From assembly GCF_025602895.1 (NCBI RefSeq), contig NW_026516259.1:236296-300295 (forward strand): a DNA stretch of 64,000 nucleotides, given 5' to 3'. Source of the DNA: Polychytrium aggregatum. Its lineage: Eukaryota; Chytridiomycota; Chytridiomycetes; Polychytriales. The notes beneath the pieces are model-generated. The model saw only the letters and a list, made by a program, of their open reading frames with translations. It did not search any database and was not told the origin of the DNA. Both the position numbers and the translations under genes were made by a program. This document shows positions 14,006-54,219 of the stretch, piece by piece; the stretch's first letter is position 1; every line of letters starts with the position of its first letter.

Positions 14006-17000
14006 TCACTTCATATAGGTCTCGCGGATGCGGCTGCGGAGCAGCAGCCGATTGACGAGCTTGGTCCAGTTTCCGAGCGCCCGCACCGCCTTTTGCTCTG
14101 CCTGCTTTCGGTCCTTGGCAATTGTGATTTCTCGATATGCCTGAAAGAAAGCCGATGGGTCGGTTACCGGGCCTGGGTCGCACTCGTGGGACAATCCAGT
14201 CACCAGCAAGCGCCATCGGCTGGGCCCTACCTCGAGCAATATCTCTTGGTACTCCTCGGCGACAACGATTCCCTGATACACTGGCGTGGATTTACCCTTG
14301 TTGAATTCGAATCCGGTCTGGCCAGCAGGAAGAGCTCGTCAGCTGGTAGCGCGGGGACTGGTTTTTGGCTTCATTGTTGCCCAAATGGCTCGGCCCAAGC
14401 TCCAGGTTGGAAGCGACTTACCACAGCGTTTGCATAGTCGATATTGAGCTTCTGCGCGACTTTACCAAGCCCAGACACTAGGATCACATACGATAAGCAC
14501 CAGGGATCGGTGGCCGTGAGAGCAGCCATGCATTGCCCATCTGTAGCTCAGTCGTTGCGTACCTTTGATGTGGACGCCACCAATCGGTACCATGCTTTCG
14601 TGCAGGATTTCAATATTGCCGAATTGGTTCTTTGGAATTATTCCCTGCCATAAGGTGCATCTTAGTAAGTGCTCCCGATAGATACACCGGCCGGTATTGC
14701 AGTGACGCCAGACCCGGCGTGCCAGCGATCGCGACTGTCGCTGGCAGCTGCCAGAGTGCATCGTGCCGCTAGAGACTCTCCTCTTACATCCTCGATAATA
14801 GGGGGCTTGTACAGCTCCGTCTGCCAAATGCCAAAGAGCCCAATCTTGGAGCTGTCGATCAGGACATCGCCCTGCTCATCGTCTAAAAGCCGCAGCTCGC
14901 GATTGCTGGCTTCGTGCTCGATATCGCGCCTCCGCTGGATCGACGCTTGTCTCACAGGTACGATCTTGGCCGGCTTCTCATCCGGCTTGATTGACCTTCC
15001 ACGGCGGAGCCAGCCATTGACCGAAAGAGCCTGGGAACATCCCAACAAGAAAGGGGATTTGTTATACCGATGCTGGATGTCCACTCGGGCACATCGCCCG
15101 ATCCCTCGACTGCCCGTCTTTGCCCGTCTTACCTCTTGCACATTTCGTCGCGGGTACACCGGCTCGCCCTTGTACTGGCCGATCATGTTCTCTTTGCCAG
15201 CAGGCCAGATCACTTCGTTGCGTTTGCAATGCCTCTCCAGGGCAAAGAGAGGGTGGTTGTTGAATCCGGCAAGCCTCGTCGGCATCTTCTCGGACCGCAA
15301 CTGCTCCCGGAAGAACTGTTCTTCGCGGGCGTCTTTGTCGGTGTCTCGCTCCGACATGGACAAGAGCCACAGCGCCCGATTCCACCATTCTTCGCCTTCG
15401 AGGCCAGCAGGAAGTCGGTTGCGTGATGTCTGAGCACCCCAGGCGGGTGCATATCTGCGAGTAACATCTTTGCACTCGCGCAGAGGGCCATACGCAACAA
15501 TGTACGAGAGCTGTAGTTGCAGGGGCTTGTTTGGTCCTGGAGCCATATCCAGTGGTCGGTCGACCATGCCCTTGTTCGGATCAACCGGAATCCATTCATC
15601 GCAATGCGGCGAATGGACCTCGCACCAGAGCGTAAGGGGATATGGCACCATGATGAAGCGATCGTCATCGAACGGGATCTCTCCAGCGTCCTTAGCTGTC
15701 CGGATATCCAGGTACAAAATGAAGGTTTAGCAGCCGAGCATCCATCAGCATGAGGATCACAGATCACAAATACGGCCGATTCGGTTCTTGCCGGCGACTA
15801 TCGCCGCCCATTCCGGACCCATGCCAACCAGGCTGCTACCTCGGTCCTCACCTGAGTTGGTTTTGCGCCGCTTCGTTGGACGCCGATCCGAGGCTGGGGC
15901 GGTGACGCTACCCTCGACGTCGTTCGGATTGCTGCCGCCCGGATTGTTGTCGGGAGATTCATCAGCCTTCCGCATGCGGCCAAGCTCGCCCGAGAACGAC
16001 AGGGGTATGGGATGGAGCGAGACGGCTAATCGAGCGTCCAAACCAATGCCCCGCATGGCGGCGACAAACAGAATTGCTGAAACTTCTGGCGACAGCGCCG
16101 TCTTGGAGCCTTCCTGCGATGGCGGTCGACTCAGAAACCGACCGAATTTCTCCATTACCGAGCCCACGCCTGACGGAGGCGCTTCGTCAGGGTCGAACGA
16201 GGGTTTGATGTCGCGCTTCCACCATATGGCCAGGAGCCGGAGATAGTGGATCAGATACCGATGGTTGGCCACATTCTGTTGACCGCTGATGCCGGAGGCG
16301 CGGCTGGAGAGTCTCGTCAGAGATTCTGCGATCTGTCGTGGTATCGCCGAGCGAGCGACGTTCTGCGGACGAGGCTGCCGTTAAGACCACATTGAGGCAC
16401 TGTCCAGGATGCAAGATGGGCGATCTGACCGTTGATATGCATCCGCCCGCATCTGCTACCGACTCACTTGCAGCTCGGGGTCGTGGCACCAAATGTTTCG
16501 ATTGCTACCGCAGATCAGAAGACAGAGCAAATGGGCTTTGTGCATCGCCATGCGCAGATCTCTGTCTTCCTTCGTGATGCCTTTGGTTTTGGGCGAGGCC
16601 CGCTGTTGCTTCCGGGCATCCTTGTCGCTGCAGACGATACGACGTCAGGAAGCTGAGGCCGTAGTACACACAGATACAGCATGAGGGCTGCATGTTGCAG
16701 AATGCTTACAGAAACGCTTTGAGCTTGGGAATGGCGATCTCTAAAGGACCAGAGGACGAGCTGGTGCCGAGCAGGTCCGAGCCAGAGCCTGTATGCCCTG
16801 CATCATCATGGGACGCAACCGCTTGTCGTCCAGCACGAACCACGACCAAATGCTTCTGATTAGACTACAAGCCCATTCGCCTGCAGTCCAGTCGCAAGCC
16901 AGCATCCCATAGCCGTTTGTATATCTATCATCCTGTCCACTCTCCCGAGTCGCCGGATCGTCAAAGGCCAGGTTGTTCCGGGTTCGGCTGGAGAGCGGGT

Positions 17001-22674: not shown

Positions 22675-25370
22675 TCATGTTTCACTTGCGAGATCCTCCA
22701 TGGGCACCTGTTCCTGGTAGCCCTTTGTCCTCATGAACCATCGTCGAATCCACGAGACATGCTCGGGAGCGCCAGGATGAGCCTCATCTGATCGTGCTGA
22801 GACGCCGATGTACTGGATGTCGCCGCCTGGGCACCCCAGGCGGGTGCCGAAGACTCGGTAGAGCCCGTCGCCGATGCCTAAAGGGGTTGACAGTCCGCCG
22901 GTCAATAAACCAGTCAGGGGCCGTGAGCGACCCGTTTGGTTCGTCCGTTCGCCGCAGTGTGGAAAGAAGATGGAGCCGTTAGAGTGTGTTGCCAGGGCCA
23001 GGACATGTGTTGTATACGACTCGGGGTACGGGTAGCCCCACACAGATGATCGCAGCGACGGTGCAGTACTTACGTTCCCACGTCATACCGAGTACTTCGC
23101 CGGCATACCAAATCGGCACGCCGCTCGCAAAGAATAGAAATGCCGCCAGGGCTTCCTTGGGTGCCTCCATGACACTGAATACGATCAGGAACAGTGTGCT
23201 GGCACAAAAGATCACTGGGACAATGATCCAAACCCGGAACGGGCGCTCCAAGTTGGGCGCACGGTACCGCAGCAGCAGCAAACCAAGGACCGCCAGCAGA
23301 TAGAATGTCCAAGCAATCATCGAATAGAATGTCACCAGAGACGTGAACGAGCCCACGCTGACAAAGAAGACGGAGATGAGGCCTTGGATAACCAACGCAT
23401 TCAGCGGTGTCTTGAAGCGAGGATGCACTTGTGCAAAGACCGGCGGTATATCCCCATGCTTCGCAGAGGCCATAAGCACCCGTGCACTTGTGAAGACGGA
23501 GCCGTTGGCAGCGCCAAAGGTCGATCCGATGACGATGATGGGGATGATGATTCCGCCGACATGGCCAAACACGTTTTTACCAAAGTCCTGATAAAGCAGA
23601 GGACATCAATTTGGCGATGGTCAGCGCAAACAACGATGAAAGCACGACCGACGTCGGGTTCAGCCATGGAGCAAGGGCAGCAAGAAAGACAAACTGCTCA
23701 GGACCCAGTGAATATCGTGAGCGCGCCGCTTCATGATATGACGGCATCAGATGATCACACAATCAGCACCAATTCATCGAAGCCCACAGTCTGGCCAGCC
23801 TAGCCAGCCTAGCCAGCTAGCCTCGACCGGCCGACTGTCTCGCTCGCTGATTCATACCATAGCAACTGACGCAGATTTGACAATCACATCTTCGGGAAGG
23901 ACGGCGTAGTAGGCCAGATTTGTCAAGAGGTAGCACACCATGATGATCAAGGGCCCTGCTATCGTGGCCTGCGGCAGGGTACGGGTTGGGTTTCGCAACT
24001 CCCCAGTGACGATGTTGAGGTTGTTCCTGCGTTGGCAATGCCCCGGGTCCACATCAGCATCAAGAGTGGCAAGGCTACCGATGATGCACAGGAAAGAGGC
24101 AGCTTCGAACGTCTGGCCAGACACACACAGTACCCAAGCCGCTGCTTACCAGCCATCGTACGCCCACAGGGCCGAATAGAGTGCCAACGCATAGTCACCC
24201 GGGTTTGTGGAGCTCCCTTGGAACGGCTCGCGGTCATAGTTGTGGCTCTTGGAGGCGCCCTCGGCCAGGATCACGCAGCCGATGCCTCCGATAACCAACA
24301 GACTGACCAGCTTCAAGGACGTAAAGATGTTTTGGACCCAGGTGCCCAGGCGAGTCGATAGGCAGTTCAGCAACGTCAGGACGGCGATGCACAGAGCGGC
24401 AATCAGCCGAGTGAGCCACACCGGGGCTACACCCCCGGGGTGTCCATAGTATATCAGTCGGACGACATACTCGGCAAAGATCATAGTGATGATGGCGATC
24501 GAGCCCGGGCGGGTGCACACCACCCCGGTCCAGGAGAACAGAAACGCGGGCAGGGTGCCATAGGCCTTGAGCAGATAGGGGTGTTCGCCGCCCGATATCG
24601 GGTACATGGTGCCAAGCTCGGCATAGCACAGCGAACCCGTCAGTGCCAGCAGGCCCGCGATGAGCCAGACAGAAAGAGCGGCGCCTGGGGTGGAGTTTCG
24701 TTAACGAAAGAGTCAGCGATCGAGTTCATGCACACTGGGCAGCCCTGGCGGTTGAGACGACGACCTGGTCGACATAAACCTCGCCGGCGGCTCGATCGTC
24801 CCCATCGCAGACCCTTGAATGCTCTTCCAGTGCCGAGAAAGGCTGCTCCCACTGCATCCATAACTTGGACAGTCCTCGATATCCCTTGGATGTCCTCTGC
24901 TGTCCTCGATTGCGCTCGATTGTGCTCGATGGACCCCTGGCCCTCGACGAAAAAGTGGACGTTGTTCACATACCGACGCTTTCTGTGTAGCCCAGGACCG
25001 GTCCAGGACTCGCAAAGATTCCGCTGCCGATGGACATGCCTATGATGATGGACAGGCCCTCGAACAGCCCCATGTTGGTTTCCAGGTCTTGGTCGTCCTT
25101 TGACAGTGAGATGGAGAGAGGGAAGGACTGCGACAGGGGAGTAAAGTCGAACGACGAGCTGGCCGCCTTGGCTATTGTCGGGTGCTCCATGTCGTCCAAG
25201 TCGTCGTCGTCGTCGAAAGGCGTGGACGGCACCGGAAAGCGCCCCGTCCTGGATCCTGCTGCGTTGCCTTCGAGGTCGCTTCCTGTCGACACATCAGACT
25301 CGAATGATGGGCGGATCGCGCTCGAAGACGCCTGGGTCCTGTATAGGCTCTGGCCGGCGGTGCTCTCCAT
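22675..25370 (-). CDS. APC-superfamily amino-acid transporter (LAT/SLC7-like)
   Basis: Multi-pass membrane protein predicted to move amino acids across the plasma or vacuolar membrane. Exons 25370-24974, 24684-24150, 24026-23858, 23587-23074 and 22796-22675 join in phase to about 578 aa. About 110 cytosolic residues (acidic DDDDDLDDME) come first. The first membrane helix carries the family substrate-binding motif: SIIIGMSIGSGIFASPGPVL. Further helices include LSVWLIAGLLALTGSLCYAE with the LGTMYPISGGEHPYLL motif, GPLIIMVCYLLTNLAYYAVL, GHVGGIIIPIIVIGSTFGAA and SMIAWTFYLLAVLGLLLLRY. The order matches L-type or methionine-permease-like fungal members; the substrate cannot be told. It is divergent from FIG4 with 543 bp between the start codons. 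Confidence 0.87.
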
Positions 25371-41652: not shown

Positions 41653-42977
41653 TTACTTTGCGGATGCTTTGAAGTAGTCGTCCAGCGTGGCCTGCACGCT
41701 CGCTTTTCCGCTCTGACTGTCGCTCTCGCGGGCGTCGTCGACTTTGCGCCTCTTGCCTCCTGGTGCTAGCCCGCAACCCGGGTCGTCCTGGGAGTCGGCG
41801 TAAGGCGATGCTGACGTTTTCACCAGCGACATTCGGTCTCCGGTGGCAGGTTTCCGACGAGATGTGGGCCGCGCAGGCTTGTTCGTATCCTCGGGCCCCG
41901 AGATTTTGCTGTACTCGCCTCCGCAGGACATTTGGTGATCCGCCCACCATCGGTCTGCCGGCTGGGGCGGTCGGTTCATCGCTCGACGGACGATTCCAAA
42001 GTACGGTGGTTGGTTCTGGCAGGGGCCGTTGCATTTCCAAACATGCACACGATAGTGATCGACTTCGTCGTGAAAGCTGCGATGAATTGGGAGGTGGACA
42101 GTACCCGCGAGTCGGGTCAGAATCTGCAAAGCAGCAGCAGGCGGAGCGATATTCAACGAAGAGGCGCAACAGATACCCAGAGGCAAGAGCCACTCGTCGG
42201 TCGATACAGCGAGATTGTCGTCCTACCTGTGGTACACAGTAATGTTGGTGAGCTGGCTGTCATTGATGCGGTTTGCCTGCTTCATGAACTGCGGTCCATG
42301 TCCATCTTTGTGAGAGCGATGACGTTTCGTTAGCAACATCGGTGTCTGGCGTGTGCATCCTAGCGACGGCTAGGGTTCGGCAATGAAAGCAACGGAGGAC
42401 TCCGGCCGATCGTGAATGGCCAGGAAGTTATCCGAGTCAATAGAAGGATACCCTGCCGCTGCGTACCATGATCGTCGTTGTTCTCCGTGACAAACAGGTA
42501 GGCATGGATCATTTCGTGCAGCAGCGTGTCGATTCGGTCTGATTTGGATCGAAACTTGAGCAGCGGTTCGCTCAACCGGATCTTACAGTATCCGCCTTTA
42601 AAGAGCCACGCACATGGCGAAGCAGTCAGCGACAATATGAGATTATCAGGGAGGCAAAGTCATCAGGTCCGTTGCAGCGTGCGTAGCTCATCCAGACAGA
42701 TTGGTCAAGAGCGCAGAGCTGACCTCGAAAGTAGGAGCACATCCCTGCGCACAGGCTGCCAAGGAGTCGGGGCAACTGAGAAGTTAAAAGGCTCCGTAGA
42801 GATGCTCCCAGCCATGTCAAAGCCCGAGGGTGCAACATATTCGACCTACGTCATTTTGGGGCTCCAGCCAACCTCGACTGCGTCCAGTGCGTTGCCGAAA
42901 CATGCCGAGTTGAAGTACAGGAACATTTCGTGCAGATCGGGGTTGGGGTCGTCGGAGAGGTGGAAGGGCGAAGCCAT
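41653..42977 (-). CDS. SPRTN: SPRTN/Spartan-like DNA-protein crosslink metalloprotease
   Basis: DNA-dependent protease that digests proteins crosslinked to DNA at stalled forks. Exons 42977-42850, 42755-42724, 42595-42467, 42305-42227 and 42076-41653 give about 263 aa. The SprT domain reads DDPNPDLHEMFLYFNSACFG, LDAVEVGWSPKMTLCAGMCS, GGYCKIRLSEPLLKFRSKSD and DTLLHEMIHAYLFV with the zinc-binding HExxH, then DGHGPQFMKQANRIN with the third His. The zinc-binding subdomain has HYRVHVWKCNGPCQNQPPYF and GIVRRAMNRPPQPADRWWAD. The C terminus ends QATLDDYFKASAK, a canonical PIP box (Q-x-x-L-x-x-Y-F) for PCNA binding. An in-frame ATG at 43034 would add 19 residues. Confidence 0.92.
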
Positions 42978-43313
42978 CTTGCCTCGAGTGATGCGCAGGT
43001 GAGGGAGATGCCACGGGGGGCTGGGGGATGGCACCGAAGAGATCGCTTTCGTTCTTGCTCAACACCCGATGACGATGTTCGTGGATGCTGGCCAAGACAT
43101 CCATGAGAACCGGATCAACCAAAGCGAGAGAGCCGAGAGAGAGCCGAGAAGGTGCCGAGAAGGTGCCGAGAGAGAGGGTGACACTGCCAAGCCACACATG
43201 GCATCGCCGCATGTCCATTCGGCCCCTCCGACAGCTTGTCCTTCATCTCACCCGTTCGACATTCGATTTGCTGCTGTCACAACAAAGGCGCTCACGATGG
43301 GCGAAGGTGGGTG
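42978..43313. promoter_or_regulatory. Divergent intergenic region (SPRTN-like / TIR-NACHT-WD40)
   Basis: Holds both promoters if the chosen starts are right. It contains imperfect GAGAGAGCCGAGA and AAGGTGCCGAG direct repeats at about 43127-43178. Confidence 0.5.
43127..43178. repeat. Imperfect purine-rich direct repeats
   Basis: Units GAGAGAGCCGAGA and (A)GAAGGTGCCGA each occur about twice in tandem in the divergent promoter region. Confidence 0.75.
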
Positions 43314-46300
43314 ATGCTGTCGTTGCCGATCAGTGACTTCCTTCACCGACTAATTTGCGGTTTGCCTGGGCCGAATGACTCGAACCCTCCTTGGCCATCT
43401 GCTGCCTCTGCCTCTCTTGTTGCTCCAGTTGCTACTGCCACCCCTGTTTCGGCCCTCACTCATACTGCCACCGAGCGAGAATACAACCGTCCTGTCCGGA
43501 ACCCACGATGGAAATGCGTCAACGGCTTCCGAATCCACGACATCTTCATCAGGTTTGTTGGTGGCGATTGTTGTTGCCGATGATCCATTCACATCCATTC
43601 ACATCCATCTCATCGATATTGCATCTATCCAGCTATCGTGCCGCAACAGAGAAATACACCGCGATTGATCTCCACTCGGCTCTCAGTGTTGGCCGTGTCG
43701 GCGAGCAGCACCCCTCCCATGTCTACCTGGATGTCCGCTGTCTCGAGAGCGGACTGAGCTGGGAGGATGGCTTCATGAACGGCCTGGCCAACTCCAAGGT
43801 CATTGTGCTCCTCCTTTCCGAGGCTGGACTCGAGAGAACCAAGACTGCTGGCACCTGCCCAGACAATCAATTCCTCGAGGTGAGTGTCGTCGATCCAGTC
43901 CAGCACCACCATCACCATCCACTCGCCATCTACTCACCAATGATCCTGTCCCAGATCGAACTGGCTCTGAAGCAGATGAAGGAGACCCAGAACACCCGCT
44001 CGCCCGTCCAGATCCTGCCGATCCTCATCAAGTCCAAGGAGATTATCAACGGCACCAAGTACATCAAGGACTGGTTCCCCAACACGAACGACTTTCCCAA
44101 TGCCATCCACTGCCACAGAGCCAGTCCCTCCAAACTCGGCCAGATCAGCCCTCCCCTCACCGTGCGCCAGACTCTCGAGGAGTTGCTCAAGTTGCAGGCG
44201 CTGATTGCTGCCGACGACTATGCCGTCACCAAGTGAGTGTGTCTGTGTGGCACTTGCTGATGGCATCCGTCTCATCCATCAGTTCATTGATGCAGACCAT
44301 CCAGATGCTGACTCACACATCCACAGACTCGTCCCCGAGATCCGCGAGACCTGGAAGAAGACCAGCCTCGTTGCCACCGTGCCAACTTATCTCCCGACTG
44401 GATCGACTGTCCTCACTGCCAACGAGAACCACGCCCTGCGACTCCTCCTCTGTCCCATTGACTCGACCCTGGACAGGCGAGCACTCGAGAAGCTGTTTGT
44501 CGAGGGCACTCGTCAGTGGTTGTTCGACCAAACGACCGACTGGGTCTACCAGGATACCATCGACACTGTCCTGTGGGTCAATGCCGTTGCCGGTGTCGGC
44601 AAGTCTGTCGCTGCTGCCCAGATCGCCAACATCCTCACAGCCAGCAACCAACTAGTGGCGGCGCTGTTCCTCAAGTACAACGACATCCGCAAGAGCGATC
44701 CGCGAGTGGTGCTGAACACCATCGCATACGGTCTGTGCAAGTGGTATGCCCCGATCGGCCGCAAGCTGCTCGATGCTGGTCACTCTAAGGACAGTCTCGA
44801 CAAGATGAACATCAACGATCTGTTCAAGGCTGTGATAGAGAGACCATTAGGGGCTCTGGGTGGCTACGAACCACAGGAAGCGATTGTGATCATGGTGGAT
44901 GGACTGGACGAGTGTCATCCCCGTGACGAGATCCTCGGGTTCCTGGCCAGTGGACTGCAGCGACTGCACACGAAGCATCCGTGGCTCAAGTTACTGCTGA
45001 CATCCCGTCCCGAGGACGATATCAAGGCAGCATTCGATGGAGTCCCGATCAAGACGATCGAACCCTCGAGCGAGGAGAACATCCGTGACCTCGAGGTGTT
45101 CATCCGCCACCGACTGCGAGTGTATGACACTCTCAGTGACTCGGACCGCACCGAGGCAGTCGCCATCCTGCTGGACCAGTCCAAGACATTCGTGTGGATC
45201 AACCTGATCCTCAACACCGTCGACGCAGCATCCAAGGACGGCCCAGTGACACTCGCCACGATCAAGGACATCAACGACAGCGCCGCCGATGTCGGTCAGC
45301 TGTACCACAAGACATTCGCCAAGATCCACTCGCAGTCGAGCCACCCGGCCGAGCTGGTCACGGTGGTGTCGGCGATCGCCACGGCCCAGTCGATCCTGAC
45401 AACACAGATCATCGTCGATGTGTTTGGACTCGAGATCGGCGTCGTTCGCGAGTGTCTCAAGAGCCTCAGCCTGGTCCTCGATCCTGGTGCCAATGGACTG
45501 GGTCCCCGAGACAGCCAGTCCACCAACAACGAGGTCAAGTTCAACCACAAGTCGGTGGCGGACTATCTCCTCGGCGACGCATCGACTGGCCATCTGTGGC
45601 ATGTGTCGACCTCGTTCCACACGGTGTTTGCTAAGGGATGTCTCGGCGAGATCCTCTCGCACGACCCAGTGGTCAACATCTGCGATATCTTCGACTTTCA
45701 CGACAATATCGCCGACCTCGAGGACAGAGTCGCAGCCAAGATCACACCGTCGCTGCGATACAGCGTCGCCCACTGGATCACACACTTTGTGTGGTGTGTG
45801 GGTGGAGTGGCCGAGTCGAGTCCGGTGTGGCAGTCGACCGAGATGGTCGATGTGGCAGCGGTGCTCACTCGGTTCGTCAAGACGCATGTGTTCTTCTGGC
45901 TCGAGTGTGGATCGCTCACACATGTGGTCAAGCCGATCATCGAGCAACTGGCTGTGCTGCGAGGAGTGATCACAAAGGCACCCAGCACCATCGTCGACGA
46001 CACCACGAAGGAACTGGTCAAGGACACGTATCGATTCATCCGCGAGTTTGCCGATCCGATCATCAAGAGTGCACCACAGGTGTACAACTCGGGATATGCA
46101 TTCACACCGAAGGAGACAACGATCTACAAGACATATGCCACCCAGCTCGAGGACAAGATCTCGTTCCTGGTCACGGCTGGTCCAGCACCCACCTGGGATC
46201 CGTGTGAGATGACATTGACTGGTCACTCGAGCCAAGTGAATTCTGTGGCAATCTCGCCCGATGGCAAGTGGATTGCCTCTGCCTCAGACGATGAAACTGT

Positions 46301-48165
46301 CAAGGTGCGTAGTGTTACCACGGGTCAAGTCAGTCGTAGCCTTGAAGGGCACATCAAGCCCGTAACCTCGGTGGCGATCTCACCCGACGGCAAGTGGATC
46401 GTCTCTGGCGCGGCTGACAAGACCATCAAGGTGTGGGATATTATCACTGGCCAGCTGAATCGCACTCTCGAGGGACATGTAAGGAATGTGAACACAGTGG
46501 CGATCTCACCTGATGGGAAGTCAATTGTCTCGGGCTCGGATGACAAGACCATCAAGGCGTGGAGTGTCGCGACAAACCAGGTGGAGTACACCCTTGTGGG
46601 ACACACAGGAGGCGTGACCTCGGTCTCGATCTCACCCGACGGCAAGTGGATTGTCTCTGGTTCTAAGGACAGGACCATCAAGGTGTGGGACGCCACGACA
46701 GGCCAATTGAAGCGCACATTGGATCAGCATACCGACTGGGTGCTCTCGGTGGCCTTCTCTTCCGATGGAAGGCGTATCGTATCCGGCTCTCTTGACAACG
46801 CCATCATGGTCTGGGATGCCGTCACTGGCCAGGTCAAGCACACTCTCAAAGGGCACACAGAAGGTGTGAGCTCTGTAGACATTTTGCCCGATGGCGGGTC
46901 GATCATCTCTGGCTCTGGTGATGGCACAATCAAGATCTGGGACTCCACCACAGGCGAGGTGACGCGCACTCTCAAGGGACACGCAGGCACTGTGAACTCC
47001 GTGGCGATATCAGCCGATGGCAAATGGCTTGTTTCTGGCGCGTGTGACGAGACTGTCAAGGTGTGGGATGTTGCCATGGATCAGGCAAAGTGCACTCGCG
47101 AAGGACATACCCACTTGGTCCTCTCCGTGGCCATCTCACTCGATGGAAAGCTGATCGTCTCCGGCTCCCGGGACAAGACCATCAAGGTGTGGGATGCCAT
47201 CGCGGGCCAGCTGAAGCACACACTTGAAGGGCACGCTAACTTGGTGCTCTCGGTGACAATCTCATCGGACAGCAAATCGATCGTCTCTGGCTCAAGTGAC
47301 GAGACCGTCAAGGTGTGGGATGCCACCACGGGTCGATGGAAGCGCACTCTCAAAGGACATGCCGGCGCTGTGTTTTCGGTTGCCATCTCGCCCGATGGCA
47401 AGTGGATTGTTTCTGGTTCCCGGGACACAACCATCAAGGTGTGGAACTTGGGCACAGGCCAAGTAAAGCACACACTTGAAGGACATAGTTGGGATGTGAA
47501 CTCCGTGGCAATCTCACCCGATGGCCAATCGATTGTGTCTGGCTCGGGTGATTGCACCGTCAAGGTGTGGGACATCAACACCGGTCGGCTGAAGCACATC
47601 CTTGAAGGACACTCAGGATATGTCAGCTCTGTAGCGATCTCGCCGGATGGCTTGCTCATCAAGTCTTGGTCCAATTGTGAAGTCATCGGCTGGGTCCGTC
47701 GGGGCAACACGTTCGTCCGCTCCGATGACGATCTTGCCAGGTTCGCCGTCGTCGCTTCGCCACCTGTCTCGCCCCAATGGGTAAAGAGTGGGGACCTGCA
47801 ATCCGAGTGGATCTGCCACGGCAAACACAGTGTCAAAATCCCGCACGCTTCCCTCGGTGACTGGTGGAGCCGGTTCTCAACTTCTCCCGACGGGATTGCA
47901 TTTTGGACCATGCCTCCATACCGTCCCGTCGCCATCCTGGTAAGTTCAAGTCAGACGTCACATCGCTCCTCGACTGCAGCTGACATCTCGTTTCCCACAG
48001 CCAATCTACCTCGGCACCCCACGGATCCAAGTAGAAGTTGCCTCCTACCTCAGAAACTCTCCTGATCCCGAACGACGGTCTCGTGCGGAAATCATTCTAT
48101 CAAGTCCGGTAGTGACTGCCTTCCTTGAGAAGGGGCGAAAGACTAGAAGCCAAAAATACCCCTGA
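43314..48165 (+). CDS. TIR-NACHT-WD40 NLR-like receptor (about 1513 aa)
   Basis: Predicted STAND-type signalling ATPase, an NLR-like sensor. Exons 43314-43552, 43633-43879, 43955-44232, 44327-47939 and 48001-48165 join in phase. After about 70 disordered residues a TIR domain begins: HDIFISYRAATEKYTAIDLH, then HVYLDVRCLESGLSWEDGF, NSKVIVLLLSEAGL, DNQFLEIELALKQM and VQILPILI. Its candidate catalytic Glu is in FLEIELAL. The NACHT part has the P-loop NAVAGVGKSVAAAQI, Walker B AIVIMVDGLDECHPRDEIL and the sensor region LLLTSRPED. Further helical sequence includes HKSVADYLLGD. The C terminus has eleven full WD40 repeats and a degenerate twelfth (46215-47700), each exactly 42 codons, typified by VTSVAISPDGKWIVSGS and KTIKVWD. 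A short tail follows the last intron. The start is the least certain point. Confidence 0.88.
46215..47700 (+). repeat. Twelve in-frame WD40 units with 126-bp period
   Basis: Unit starts (LTGH, LEGH, LVGH, LKGH and similar) fall at 46215 + n x 126 without any insertion or deletion up to the twelfth at 47601. Unit 5 has DQH in place of the usual GH. Unit 12 loses the pattern after VSSVAISPDG. Variable residues sit mainly between GH and V, and near the end of each unit, where a propeller top surface would bind ligand. Confidence 0.93.
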
Positions 48166-48491
48166 TGCCAAGCTCAAAGACTCGCTCCAGTGCCTCCGCA
48201 GGCAGAGTGCTTGAGCCATCCGGATGCAGTGCCGCCAAATGAGATCGATGCATTGCAATAGATTGACTGAATCATGAAGCCAGCTCGTTCCGCGACGGGC
48301 TGCGGCAATGCGGATGAGTGAGTCTCGCGCGTGGGGCTCACGCAACTCGACGGGGTTGGCTCTGTCGGGGAGAGTGCGATGTGATGAAAGCGATTTAGTG
48401 AATGTGGCGTACATCTGGTCGCAGTAAGTGTTGGGCCAGCCTTATCCTCTCATCGCCGAGGGGCGTCAGCGATGGGAGGGTGTCGCATTTA
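48166..48491. other. Convergent intergenic region
   Basis: About 325 bp between convergent gene ends; nothing recognised. Confidence 0.5.
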
Positions 48492-51041
48492 TTACCGAGC
48501 TTTCTCATGCCAGATTTCCATCAACTCCCGCCTCCCACCCATTCCCAACTGCTCGTACATCCATTTCATGGCTTGGATGTCCTCCAGTCCCGGCTCAAAC
48601 CCTTCCACTTGCATCTCAGTGAAGATCCATTCGCACGCCTGACATAGCAAGTCGCGGATGTGTGGGTCCCGATGATGCTCCGGCCCAGACTGAGGAGCCA
48701 GTTGACTGTGTTCGGTCTTGGTTTCGGAGTCGATGAATCTTGCATACAGGCTAAGTGCCCCGCCGTAGAGCTCGACACTTGGGGCTTGCTGGGCAAGCTC
48801 GCTCGTGTCCCTCAGGAACTGCTTGAATATTCTCTTGACGCTGTCGAGCTCAAACGGCCGCAGCCTATTTTGGTATGCTAGATAGGGCGACTGGAACTGG
48901 GACGGCGGCAGAAGCCGCTGTCTCATGAGAATCGCATGCGGCTGGTGGGGGTGGTAGAATCGTGTCTGCAGTCGCTTGTCGTAGAGCGACGGCTTTCCAG
49001 ACGACCGAGTACTTTGGAGCGAGAGTTCGTGATAGACATGGTAGATGTTCATGTAGTCTTGTCGGGTCCATCGCTGTCCCTTCAGATGGGCGCAATCGAT
49101 CTCGAGAACGTCTCGGATCTTCACCCGGTTCAGCGATTCTTTATCACCGTTGCAACTGTCGCTGGGAAGCAGTCGCAGAATGCTCAGTGCGGCGTCGAGG
49201 CTCAGATCGCTGCAGAATAGCTGGAGTAACTTCGAGAGCACTGACTTTGGCACCCTGATCTCGAGCGGCTCTGTGCTGGCTGACCGAAGCAACGCCTGGA
49301 TATCCTCGATGCGCCGGTCGCGGCCCAACTCGACAACCATGTGCTCCAGCATCGTCTGTAGCGCTTCGTCGTGGCGGTGGATTTGTATCCGAAGATCGTC
49401 GAGATTGTGGCAAGAGACTACGGCCGAGAGCCGGCTACTGGCCCCATTGTGTGACTTTGGGAGTTCTGTGGGTGTGACTGCTGTCGACTGGCTTTCGTGT
49501 GTCTTGAGTTGGCTTCGGAGCGAGGTCATGGCGGCGTGGGTGCTGAAGAGAATGTCTTCTGCACGGGCGAAATCGCCCATCGCTGTGTAGAGGCGTAGCA
49601 TATCGGTGCGCTGCGAGAGGCTGAGCTCGGTGATTGCTTGTGAGTGCGCATCATTTGGCGGGCTCCTGGGCCGCTTCCGTCGTCGAGCGCCTCCTCTTAG
49701 GCCTTGGTTGGTGGGCGATGAGGGTCCGGCAGCTATTTTTGCTTCGAGCACACCGAGTAGTTCGCCAGCCACCTTGGCTGAGCTACTCAGAATCGAGGTG
49801 GCTGCCCACAGAATCAAGTATCCTGGGTCCAGCTGCGTCGAAGGAGGCTCTCGGCGCCTGGCACTCGGCGTCGCTGCAATAGTTCGGAGAATTTGCAGGG
49901 CCGAGGCTCTCTGGCCGTTTTGCAGAAAGATCCGCGTCAGTGTCTTGAGAAAGAACGGCGTCAAGTGCGCCTTTCTGCTCCTTAGGAACTTGAGAATGTC
50001 GACGGCGATGAGGAGGGCTTTCGAGTGGTTGGTTCTTGTGAGGTTGTGCAGGTACATTGCCAAAACATCTGCGGGTATCCCCACGGTGCCCGGGGTTTCC
50101 TTGGAGAGCAGGGCAAGCGTAATGTCGCTGGAAGGCAGTGTCTGAGAGTCCCAGTGATGTTTCAGAACCTCCCAGCGAGCCTGGCTGGCTTCTCGCGGGC
50201 TGGTCGATGCACGCTCTTCAATCTGGTTGTAGATTGAATTAGCTTCGTGGGATCGTCCGCGCTCCAGTGACGCAACCATTTGCCACTTGAGACAGCCCGT
50301 CGGAATGGACAGGCCTGTGGACTGCAGCAACTCGGAGCAGCGCTTCATTTGGCCGGGTGATTTGGTTTTCGTGAATGCATACATGAAGGCCTCGAAGCAA
50401 AGGCCAATGTCGTGGGCTTGGGTATCTTGGCTGGTGCCGTCGGGTTGTGCGGCGGGCTCCGCTTGGGTGAGTCCGAGTCTTTGCAGCTCGGCCCGAAACA
50501 TGTCAAAGAGGCTTCGGATCATTGCCGTGTCTTCCGATGCTCCATAGAGTCGTGCATAGCGAGTATAGATCGGGAATGGGTTGCGCAGGTTGCTTGAAAG
50601 ACTGTCCATCAGATCCAGCGCGACTGCGGCTGGCCCTCTGAGATGGATCCAGTCCTGGAAGTCGCTGGCCAAGACAGTATCGAGCTCGAGCCACTGGCGG
50701 GCTTCGTGATCAGTGATAGACTCCCAATCGTCCTCGGAGAAGCGCAATGCAGGCTCCAAGAGCTCTTGACCGAGCGCTCCAGGACGCCGATCGCCAAGTT
50801 GGATGACATGGTACGCTGGGGGAGGACCACGGGCACTGCGCAGATCGATCGATTCGATTGCTGCACTGGAAGCGGGCTGCGAGAGGGCACGATTCTGGCT
50901 TGGACGAGGCGTCGGCGAGGAGGCTGCGAACGACTGAGGACGACCTGGCGGCCCAAGTTGCTGTTGCTGCTGCGACACAGCGAGAGTAATGGTGCGTCTG
51001 CAAGCCCAATGGACGCTCCTGAATCTTGCAGATGCCAACAT
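48492..51041 (-). CDS. Alpha-solenoid (PPR-like) protein, probably mitochondrial
   Basis: Single long frame without introns. Starting at the ATG at 51041 gives MLASARFRSVHWACRRTITL, a basic Arg/Ser-rich, acid-free presequence typical of mitochondrial import. The frame is open to 51275, so an upstream start is possible. The body (about 849 aa) is almost all amphipathic helix pairs, for example IPADVLAMYLHNLTRTNHSK then ALLIAVDILKFLRS, and QRTDMLRLYTAMGDFARAED. The end is PPR-like: ACEWIFTEMQVEGFEPGLED. Fungal mitochondrial RNA-processing or translation factors often look like this. I do not recognise a named family, and repeat assignment by eye is weak. Confidence 0.72.
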   Translation of the reverse strand: MLASARFRSVHWACRRTITLAVSQQQQQLGPPGRPQSFAASSPTPRPSQNRALSQPASSAAIESIDLRSARGPPPAYHVIQLGDRRPGALGQELLEPALRFSEDDWESITDHEARQWLELDTVLASDFQDWIHLRGPAAVALDLMDSLSSNLRNPFPIYTRYARLYGASEDTAMIRSLFDMFRAELQRLGLTQAEPAAQPDGTSQDTQAHDIGLCFEAFMYAFTKTKSPGQMKRCSELLQSTGLSIPTGCLKWQMVASLERGRSHEANSIYNQIEERASTSPREASQARWEVLKHHWDSQTLPSSDITLALLSKETPGTVGIPADVLAMYLHNLTRTNHSKALLIAVDILKFLRSRKAHLTPFFLKTLTRIFLQNGQRASALQILRTIAATPSARRREPPSTQLDPGYLILWAATSILSSSAKVAGELLGVLEAKIAAGPSSPTNQGLRGGARRRKRPRSPPNDAHSQAITELSLSQRTDMLRLYTAMGDFARAEDILFSTHAAMTSLRSQLKTHESQSTAVTPTELPKSHNGASSRLSAVVSCHNLDDLRIQIHRHDEALQTMLEHMVVELGRDRRIEDIQALLRSASTEPLEIRVPKSVLSKLLQLFCSDLSLDAALSILRLLPSDSCNGDKESLNRVKIRDVLEIDCAHLKGQRWTRQDYMNIYHVYHELSLQSTRSSGKPSLYDKRLQTRFYHPHQPHAILMRQRLLPPSQFQSPYLAYQNRLRPFELDSVKRIFKQFLRDTSELAQQAPSVELYGGALSLYARFIDSETKTEHSQLAPQSGPEHHRDPHIRDLLCQACEWIFTEMQVEGFEPGLEDIQAMKWMYEQLGMGGRRELMEIWHEKAR

Positions 51042-51625: not shown

Positions 51626-54219
51626 TTAGCGGCGGCCAAGGCGAGCATCACGCTTGCGCTGCCAGGCGGTGCGGACAACATCACGGATGCGGGACTCTTC
51701 CTGCTTCCAGTTGAGGGTGCCGCAGTTCAGGAGGTTCTCGACCTCCTCAGGCTTGTACTGGAACTGGCCAAAGCCAATGTCGTTAGGGTAGAACTCGGGC
51801 ATCTCGGGGTTGGGCAGGATGGGCATGTAGGCAACGGTCATGGGATGCGTGGCATTGCGGGCGCCGTAGATGTTGGCGCCGGTGGGGTTGTTCGGAGTCA
51901 TCTCGTAGACCTGCAGGTAGCGGTTCTTGTACTTTTCGCGGAGCGACTCGGCCGTGTTAGGGACTCGGGCAACACCGGGGGTGGGTTGTTCTTGAGGAGG
52001 AGGTGCAGCCGAGGCAAGCTTCATCGAGAGACCCTTGCGCTTGCCAAAGGATTCAATGTCGGGAGTCACGACGTTGCGCTCGACATCGACACTCGAGTCA
52101 AAGACAAAAGCAATGTCGACGTTGCGGCCCTCGCGGGTGAGCACGTACAGGGGCTGGTTGTTGTCTGGTCCGGCATCGACCAGCTGGATGCGCTTCGAGT
52201 TCTTGATGCCAGGGGGAGTCTTCTCGGGGCCCTCCTCGTACATATAGTTCCAGTTGTACGAGGCGTGGAAGGGATGGATGTTCAGCAGCTGCTTAAGCCA
52301 CAGGCTGGCGTTGGGCTGGATGAGAGTGCCAAGGAATTCCTTGAGCTTGGCCTGGACAGTCGACGTGGTCTCGGAGCGCTGGAAGGTCTGGATGGTGGTG
52401 GTCAGGGGCGCACAGATGGCGCTGCCGGTCATGCCGATGATGAGCGAAAAGTTCTGTTCAGGTACGACGTTGATGGACTTGCCGTTGACGAACTTTCTGC
52501 CAAAGGCCCAGGTGGGAACCCAGGCTATCAGAAGCAGGGAAGCAGAGGCAGGGGCAAGTGAAAGGGATGTCAGTATCATGCAGAAGTGGCCGCCGCCGCA
52601 GACTGGCCATTGTCCACCGGGCTGAGCACGGCCGATGGACAGATCGCATCGCTCCCTCGAGTCAGCCAACTCGCATCGCTCCCTCGGGTCAGCCAACTCG
52701 CATCGCTCCCTCGGGTCAGCCAACTCGCATCGCTCCCTCGAGTCAGCCAACGACACGCGTGAGCTCGGGATCCGGCCCAAGGCTCTCAACAGGACAGCAT
52801 GCTTGCCTTGGAGCTCGTCACAGCCAAGCTGGAAGGGAGTGATTTCGAACCACTGCCACCAGGCGCAGGGGCTGTTTGGATCGCGGGGATCAAACTCGGA
52901 CTTTTCTTTCAAGGCATCGCGGGTTTCGTACGTCTTCAGCATGGCCTCGTACTCTTCCTTTGGAAGATCGGGGTCGAACTTGTCGGCCCAGGGGCGTTCG
53001 TGGCGGGTGCACGTGTAGATGGGCATCGGGTTCTGGCCACCCTCGAGGAACTTGCTGTGGTGGCTGAGCTTGAAATGATCGTCGTCCCAGTTGCCCGAGA
53101 TACCGCCGTAGAAGAAGCAGTTCATGATGCAGCCGCAGGTGTCAATGACACCGCGGGGGAGATCAAGGACCTTCTTGAGAGCCAGGCCGCTGAAGACCTT
53201 GTGGACACGCTTCTCAAGATCTTCTTGGAGAATCTGGTAGAGGTGGATGGGGTCGGCGGGGTGGTGGACGATGGTGCGCTTGATGTGTTCGATCATGTTT
53301 GGGACAGAGCGACCGGAGGTGGTGAAGTACGTAGCGAGGGTGAGGCAGCCGCCGCTGACGCCTGGCCAAGACGATCGAGGGCAAGGAAGGGGTACGAGTT
53401 GGGGTAAGTACCGGCGCTCTAACGGCGACCATGCAGTCAGCAGGTACGGGGTCTGGCAAGCAACATATGCTTTGCTAAAGCCCGTCCGGACCCACGTTCT
53501 CTCAAGCCGATGCGGACGACGAAGGAGCAACGGCAGTCAATGCCCTGCAAAATACGCACCGGCCATGTACATGATGCAGTCCCAGAATCCAGAGTCGTAG
53601 ATGCCCTTGCAATATCCTGTGCCGTTGAGGGTTTGTTAGCAAGCAGGTTCTCTGGATGGCGCTGCACCAACAAGCAGGTCGCCACGAGGCGGTGTTTGGA
53701 CATTGGGCGGACAGGCAGGACCTCAGTGCGGCCGGAAGGAGGAATCTCTGGGAGGCTTACCAGCGGTAACGGTCATGGACTTGAAGGCGCCACCGCTGCC
53801 GGTGATGGCAATAACGGGGATGTCGTCGGGGTGGATGTTCTCGACGGGCTCGCCAATGAAGCGCGCAAAGGCCTCTCTCATGAACTCCTTGCGTTCCTTC
53901 TGGAACTTTTGCTCCTCAACAGGAATAGTGTTGTCGTGGCTGCAGCGAGCGGTACGATGAGAGAGAGGCACGGTGAGACATGGGTGGATACGGGTCCAGG
54001 CGACAACGGCGTTTGGCAACAGCGCTCGGCAAACAGCGGTGGAGGACAACAAGCGGCCGGCACTCACGACACAGTGACTTGCTCAATCTTCAGCTCGGGA
54101 TGGAGGTCCGGGTTGTCGATCTCAGTGGGGTACTCGCCCTCCATGCGGTTGACGGCCTCGTAGATGGAGGACGTGTCCCGCACGGACTCGGGGATGAGGG
54201 ACTGGATGAAGCTGGCCAT
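51626..54219 (-). CDS. Cytosolic phospholipase A2 / phospholipase B-type lipase
   Basis: Predicted to cleave acyl chains from phospholipids with a Ser-Asp dyad. Exons 54219-54068, 53939-53761, 53616-53560, 53361-52807 and 52524-51626 join in phase to 613 aa. The oxyanion-hole motif is PVIAITGSGGAFKSMTVTAG, the nucleophile elbow MAGVSGGCLTLATYF, and the Asp region IQLVDAGPDNNQPLYVL followed by VDIAFVFDSSVD. No signal peptide is visible at MASFIQSLIPESVRDT, so it should be intracellular, unlike secreted PLB enzymes. The fourth intron appears to use a GC donor (CAAG then GCAAGC) and contains a 27-bp minisatellite. If it is retained, the frame stays open and adds about 94 repetitive residues. Confidence 0.85.
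52645..52750. repeat. 27-bp minisatellite inside lipase intron 4
   Basis: About three and a half copies of a unit beginning TCAGCCAACTCGCATCGCTC. It lies in a putative GC-AG intron. The period is a multiple of three, so the intron has no stop in the coding frame. Confidence 0.9.

Follow-up and report, generated by a model that had tools for sequence, protein, structure and literature searches.

The stretch of DNA analysed here (the window) comprises 64,000 nucleotides, C372:236296-300295 of a 64.7-Mb assembly of 418 contigs, and the whole assembly was searched. The element under study is a gene at window positions 43314-48165 on the + strand, for which a sequence-only reading had proposed a TIR domain, a NACHT-type NTPase and a WD40 array joined across introns. 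Spliced translation gave a five-exon gene of 1513 amino acids (aa) with its stop at 48165, and all four introns are GT-AG and in phase. The motifs on which that reading relied were all located in the spliced frame: HDIF at residue 75, the candidate catalytic Glu of FLEIELAL at residue 162, GVGKS at residue 344, and VDGLDEC at residue 445. The parts of the gene are as follows.

43314..43552, + strand: exon 1, N-terminal leader, linker and first TIR strand (HDIFIS); start codon uncertain
43633..43879, + strand: exon 2, TIR core; its last codon, 43877-43879, encodes the candidate catalytic Glu (residue 162)
43955..44232, + strand: exon 3, C-terminal half of the TIR (IELALKQ...)
44327..47939, + strand: exon 4, NACHT-clan NTPase (P-loop GVGKS, Walker B VDGLDEC) and WD40 array
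46221..47732, + strand: WD40 units, 12 of 42 aa each, the last degenerate; variation is greatest at a few repeat positions
48001..48165, + strand: exon 5, C-terminal tail and stop

Within exon 1, the stretch 43422-43550 was 63% identical to paralogs. Before about 43422 a counterpart was found only in an allele of the gene on contig C82; the start codon of the model is tentative. The gene model supports the presence of TIR, NACHT-type NTPase and WD40 parts in one predicted protein.

When the whole protein was scanned with Pfam, the best 25 of 60 families were all propellers; the TIR and NTPase parts were scanned as separate segments. The TIR segment, a 199-aa N-terminal query, matched TIR_2 (PF13676) at E 2.5e-7 and 31.7 bits, above the curated cut-off of 28, so that the TIR assignment made by eye held up under a profile. 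No other Pfam family matched this query at E≤1, and hence there was no HET domain match. A ten-sequence TIR profile identified SARM1 as the nearest solved TIR in the PDB by sequence (E 1.5e-4). In this alignment the Glu of LEI in FLEIELAL, at the start of helix C, fell on the Glu of KEIVTAL in SARM1, which we take to be the catalytic E642, and the LE motif containing the candidate Glu was invariant in all ten TIR copies chosen. Structure prediction used an intronless paralog, L065, in place of the window protein, in which introns interrupt the TIR. The AlphaFold model, made from an eight-sequence alignment, had a mean predicted local distance difference test score (pLDDT) of 79.9 and a predicted template-modelling score (pTM) of 0.75. 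All ten PDB matches found by Foldseek at E≤0.001 were TIR domains (RPS4, SARM1, L7, RPPT, two chains of L6, RUN1, two entries of RPP1, and TIR-1), and the first non-TIR fold appeared at E 6e-3. At the level of sequence, these comparisons establish TIR homology and conservation of the candidate Glu; NAD+-cleaving (NADase) activity of the window TIR is predicted.

The Pfam TIR model PF01582 had zero matches at E≤0.001 when the genome was searched exon by exon, which indicates how easily the family is missed; the available part of a survey of fungal genomes likewise gives no PF01582 TIR (PMC2939053). The window TIR scored 15 bits (E 0.0024) with the Thoeris protein ThsB in PADLOC and 14.7 bits with ThcB4 in NCBIfam (threshold 220), and so is a profile match to neither. 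A prokaryotic origin was also considered and rejected: one scan of genome contigs with a TIR alignment and a single peptide pattern gave 100 fitting stretches with none confirmed, which is weak evidence of absence.

The NTPase segment alone matched NPHP3_N at E 2.2e-26 and 93.5 bits (cut-off 24.8), and scored 19.7 bits with Pfam NACHT, under the cut-off of 26.7. It has the P-loop and Walker B of a NACHT-clan STAND NTPase, and NPHP3_N presumably also covers the NTPases of fungal NOD-like receptors (NLRs). WD40 stretches were detected 12 times in the whole protein and 11 times in the segment alone. Beginning at 46221, the 12 units follow each other at exact 42-aa spacing, the last being degenerate; a 13th unit suggested at 45588 by a pattern match was spurious. 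The 11 full units had mean pairwise identities of 58% (aa) and 66% (DNA), and their positions of highest entropy were 5, 4, 23, 25 and 33, followed by 3, 7 and 32, which were tied. According to the accessible part of Paoletti et al. (PMC1805685), WD40 codons 7, 9, 25 and 27 of the HNWD genes are positively selected and flank the conserved codons 8 and 26. With these conserved codons matched to V6 and D24 of the window unit, the equivalents of the selected codons are positions 5, 7, 23 and 25, all of which are found among the eight positions, out of 42, with the highest entropy (simple counting puts the chance of this at about 6e-4). In the paralog L062, in which the pattern caught 8 of about 10 units, three of the equivalents were the top three positions and the fourth ranked 11th. 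Because WD40 loops vary in general, we rejected this variation as proof of selection; it supports a putative recognition surface at these loops.

To the extent that the fusion depends on splicing, paralogs provided the relevant comparison. Fifteen paralogous loci, allele pairs counted in, were aligned. In L016 and L017, exons 2-4 were 63-83% identical to those of the window gene and introns 1-3 were 39-49% identical, with the GT-AG borders of these introns at the same places (judged by eye, as the aligner slips at intron 3). L029, L030 and L063 have no intron 3, so that the last TIR exon and the NTPase share one open frame, which in L063 runs into the WD40 array. In a second branch (L036, L042, L065, L066, L067 and L069) the TIR and P-loop lie in a single open frame. 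On these three lines of comparison we take the fusion in the gene model to be real. Three loci were less regular: the frame of L054 reads through a probable intron, the P-loop of L068 is degenerate, and the TIR frame of L070 is broken before the NTPase. Support for three domains within one gene came from profiles, from the structure model of a relative and from the comparison of paralogs.

The TIR frame across exons 2-3 was kept in 13 of the 15 loci. The ratio of nonsynonymous to synonymous substitution rates (dN/dS) of the TIR exons was 0.16-0.42 in 11 of 13 computed pairs, namely those without the frameshifted L012, and these values demonstrate that the TIR exons are under purifying selection. 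L012 (C179:601263-601553), with its frameshifted TIR, and L014 (C179:612895-613182), with a foreign 5' part, lie about 12 kb apart on opposite strands and are likely decaying members.

Searches of the genome gave 183 exon matches with the window TIR as query (150 listed), 38 matches with Pfam TIR_2, and 106 with NPHP3_N. Loci were counted by merging listed rows, and the TIR figures hold among the matches listed. The results showed 101 NPHP3-type NTPase loci, of which 86 lie in open frames of 700 aa or more, and at least 139 TIR loci. At no fewer than 96 of the 101 NTPase loci, alleles included, a TIR match on the same strand lay at most 2.5 kb upstream, where chance would give about 0.3; most of these upstream matches were found by the window-TIR query and not by Pfam. 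One of the five NTPase loci without a listed upstream TIR, C320:284, begins at a contig end. Conversely, 43 of the 139 listed TIR loci had no NPHP3-type NTPase nearby, and some of these belong to the second branch. Many loci were paired on two contigs with equal score, which suggests that both alleles are present in the assembly; as a rough guide only, 89 strong rows among the 96 loci gave 72 distinct score pairs. The genome thus contains a large TIR-NTPase family, and TIR N termini are the rule among its NPHP3-type NTPase loci. The statement of the sequence-only reading, made from general knowledge of fungal NLR repertoires, that such N termini are rare was wrong for this genome.

The second branch was largely missed by Pfam models. 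Of its NTPases, L036 and L042 were scanned, and with NB-ARC (cut-off 23.5) L042 passed at 25.9 and L036 fell below at 18.1. The genome search with NB-ARC gave 6 matches, fewer than the TIR-P-loop open frames of this branch, and the branch is therefore undercounted. With Pfam TIR_2, L031 (C386:1072842-1073114) scored highest in the genome (63.9 bits, and 61.5 for the protein); it sits in a 402-aa frame, and the protein scanned had no further Pfam match at E≤0.001.

Of 11 close loci, 10 (L018 and L020-L028; not L019) carried two extra exon pieces ahead of the TIR that translate into what looks like a SAM domain; the pieces were joined by script in six of the ten and read by eye in the other four. 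The SAM of close paralogs scored 14.3 bits with SAM_2, under the cut-off of 20.5. Three diverged paralogs scored 24.3, 39.1 and 37.0 bits with SAM_1, all over its cut-off of 23, and for this reason we accepted the SAM in the nearest paralogs as well. A seven-sequence SAM profile matched Caskin-1 entries in the PDB from E 3.1e-9 and SARM1 just at E 0.05 to 0.63; the SAM of the family is therefore not specially close to that of SARM1. Of the 96 loci, 64 (E≤0.001), 71 (E≤0.01) or 74 (E≤10) had a SAM-region match within 4 kb upstream, and both SAM halves were matched at 15 (E≤0.01) or 53 (E≤10); these counts use all 144 rows, many of which also span the linker, which raises their score. In a control, 130 of the 135 SAM-region rows lay upstream of a member of this set of 96. 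The exons of L062 could be joined across five introns into a full SAM-TIR-NACHT-WD40 protein of 1467 aa, and this appears from the gene models to be the usual architecture of the family. In the SAM-region search the window gene and its C82 allele matched the linker and not the SAM, and tblastn with a SAM-linker query found no SAM elsewhere in the window. Since most paralogs appear to have a SAM, the window copy is an exception, and the sequence-only reading could not have seen this domain. At two further places, C23:61029-62124 and C81:19885-20980, a SAM-region match precedes a TIR match that has no NPHP3-type NTPase nearby. L022 and L023 (contigs C79 and C9) share an insert in intron 1, at about 1060-1450 in gene orientation, with an A-rich end and, by eye, of retroelement type.

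The C82 allele (L001 plus L061) was compared with window positions 42430-48920. The flanks, exon 1 and the WD40 array were 98-100% identical; across the TIR and NTPase, identity was 77-100% in patches, a pattern suggestive of gene conversion by paralogs. The two alleles had equal numbers of WD40 repeats, and the paralogs L061, L062 and L064 differed in repeat number by eye. The dN/dS between the TIR exons of the two alleles was 0.21. The window gene, with its mosaic alleles, lacks the SAM that most members of this SAM-TIR-NACHT-WD40 family appear to carry.

We consider it about 70% probable that the window gene encodes a TIR-type NLR in which oligomerisation triggered by the WD40 array would switch on TIR NADase activity and lead to cell death or arrest. 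The WD40 propeller would sense a target, and target binding would cause nucleotide exchange in the NACHT-type NTPase and oligomerisation, as in the STAND family. Oligomerisation would pack the TIR domains, with the help of the SAM in most paralogs, into an active NADase. By analogy with SARM1 and the plant TIR-NLRs, this enzyme would deplete NAD+ or make ADP-ribose signals, with cell death or arrest as the outcome; plants and animals both employ TIR domains to set off cell death. The sensing may concern self and non-self or viruses, as the sequence-only reading suggested.

Several results weigh against this interpretation. The window TIR alone matched SARM1 weakly in the PDB (E 0.0098). The relative whose model was used, L065, belongs to the other branch, is 34% identical to the window TIR, and scored 19.3 bits with TIR_2, under the cut-off of 28; its fold matches had TM-scores of 0.46-0.56 by query length. 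Among the four intronless TIRs scanned with TIR_2, L036 passed at 32.1 bits, and L042 (22.6) and L069 (17.3) fell below along with L065. Two of the 15 paralogous loci have no intact TIR frame, L012 being frameshifted with stops and the 5' part of L014 being a different one. Finally, the missing SAM and the distinct 5' end of the window copy suggest that it may be a decoy or decaying.

This last point leads to the best surviving alternative, in which recombination took the SAM exons from the window copy and left a damaged or decoy member with no signalling of its own. The linker-only match of both alleles and the failure of tblastn to find a SAM elsewhere in the window speak for it. Against it, all five exons are in open frame, and the dN/dS of 0.21 between the allele TIRs points to constraint, though gene conversion by other intact copies may explain that difference. 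We regard this alternative as unlikely for the window copy. Slightly less probable still is that the TIR lacks catalysis and serves as a scaffold or adaptor to which further TIR or SAM proteins are recruited, a role that some TIRs of animals have. Catalysis is absent from many animal TIRs, and the SAM of the paralogs suggests oligomer assembly; the invariance, in all ten chosen copies, of the Glu aligned with the catalytic Glu of SARM1, and the presence of NADase-type TIRs among the nearest relatives by sequence and fold, argue against this role. A housekeeping scaffold with a nephrocystin-like NTPase and a propeller, having no link to immunity, would account for NPHP3_N being the best NTPase match, but is very improbable given 101 NTPase loci, paralogs differing in repeat number, patchy allele differences, loop-position variation in the repeats, and the fungal NLR NTPases that NPHP3_N presumably includes.

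As a putative TIR-type NLR, the window gene can be compared with several known systems. HET-E, HET-D and HET-R, of the HNWD gene family of Podospora anserina, likewise have a NACHT-type NTPase and C-terminal, internally similar WD40 units that vary at corresponding loop positions. Their N terminus is a HET domain, whereas here it is a TIR, with a SAM in most paralogs; a genome search for the HET domain was empty, but so was its positive control. SARM1 and TIR-1 have a SAM adjoining the TIR, as do the paralogs, and SARM1 is the best PDB match by sequence, with its catalytic Glu aligned. SARM1 has two SAM domains, whereas the paralogs have one and the window copy none, and the TIR here precedes a NACHT-WD40 body. 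No ARM domain was seen, although no dedicated search was made, and the leader before HDIF is 74 aa. The plant TIR-NLRs (RPS4, L6, RPP1 and RUN1) are alike in having an N-terminal TIR, a STAND NTPase and a C-terminal repeat sensor, and their TIRs were among the fold matches of L065. They have NB-ARC and leucine-rich repeats, whereas the window gene has an NPHP3/NACHT-type NTPase and WD40 repeats, which places it outside the plant class.

TIR-type NLRs have already been reported from Chytridiomycota, in one sentence (PMC9815663), and "a small group" of TIR-NLRs from fungi (PMC10197012). These accounts agree with the present family in placing a TIR on a fungal NLR, and the parts of them that are available give no SAM, repertoire dominance or full architecture. 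In the literature searched, which excludes most subscription journals, we did not find a SAM-TIR on a NACHT-WD40 body in fungi or a comparable TIR dominance. The Dikarya HET domain is described in the accessible text of PMC10197012 as a distant TIR relative in the same place, with enzymatic activity still to be shown, and the corresponding part of PMC12881547 lists that activity as not determined. SARM1 homologs are noted in animals and choanoflagellates (PMC6040629, in the part available).

The chances seem to us evenly balanced that nearly the whole NACHT-type NLR repertoire of this zoosporic fungus combines a SARM1-like SAM-TIR NADase core with a HET-E-like NACHT-WD40 sensor with hypervariable loops. 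If so, the enzyme behind axon death in animals and the receptors of fungal allorecognition would act by a common effector principle, and the TIR-NLRs of fungi would form a large and diversifying system on a par with the plant one. What is known of fungal NLRs comes mostly from Dikarya, in which HET takes the position of the TIR. A chytrid-grade fungus with at least 96 TIR-NTPase loci would make NAD+ cleavage in fungal NLR cell death directly testable, as well as the SARM1-like pairing of SAM and TIR beyond animals and choanoflagellates.

The chitin synthase model PF03142 gave 71 genome matches (best E 3.9e-229), of which the weaker may not be chitin synthases; the model also matched in 4 of 14 prokaryote controls. 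Radial-spoke protein 3 gave four matches on two contigs. Together these matches fit a zoosporic fungus, consistent with the chytrid-type host suggested from the window. Neighbouring genes in the window matched ordinary families, as follows.

1-1215, - strand: CCCH zinc finger
14665-15726, - strand: Rad4
24149-24700, - strand: amino acid permease
51629-53536, - strand: lysophospholipase-like

Six of the ten neighbouring frames scanned had no match at E≤1e-4. A divergent neighbour at 42360-43058 on the - strand contains HEMIHAYLF, by eye an HExxH-type metalloprotease motif, and this neighbour may be SprT-like.

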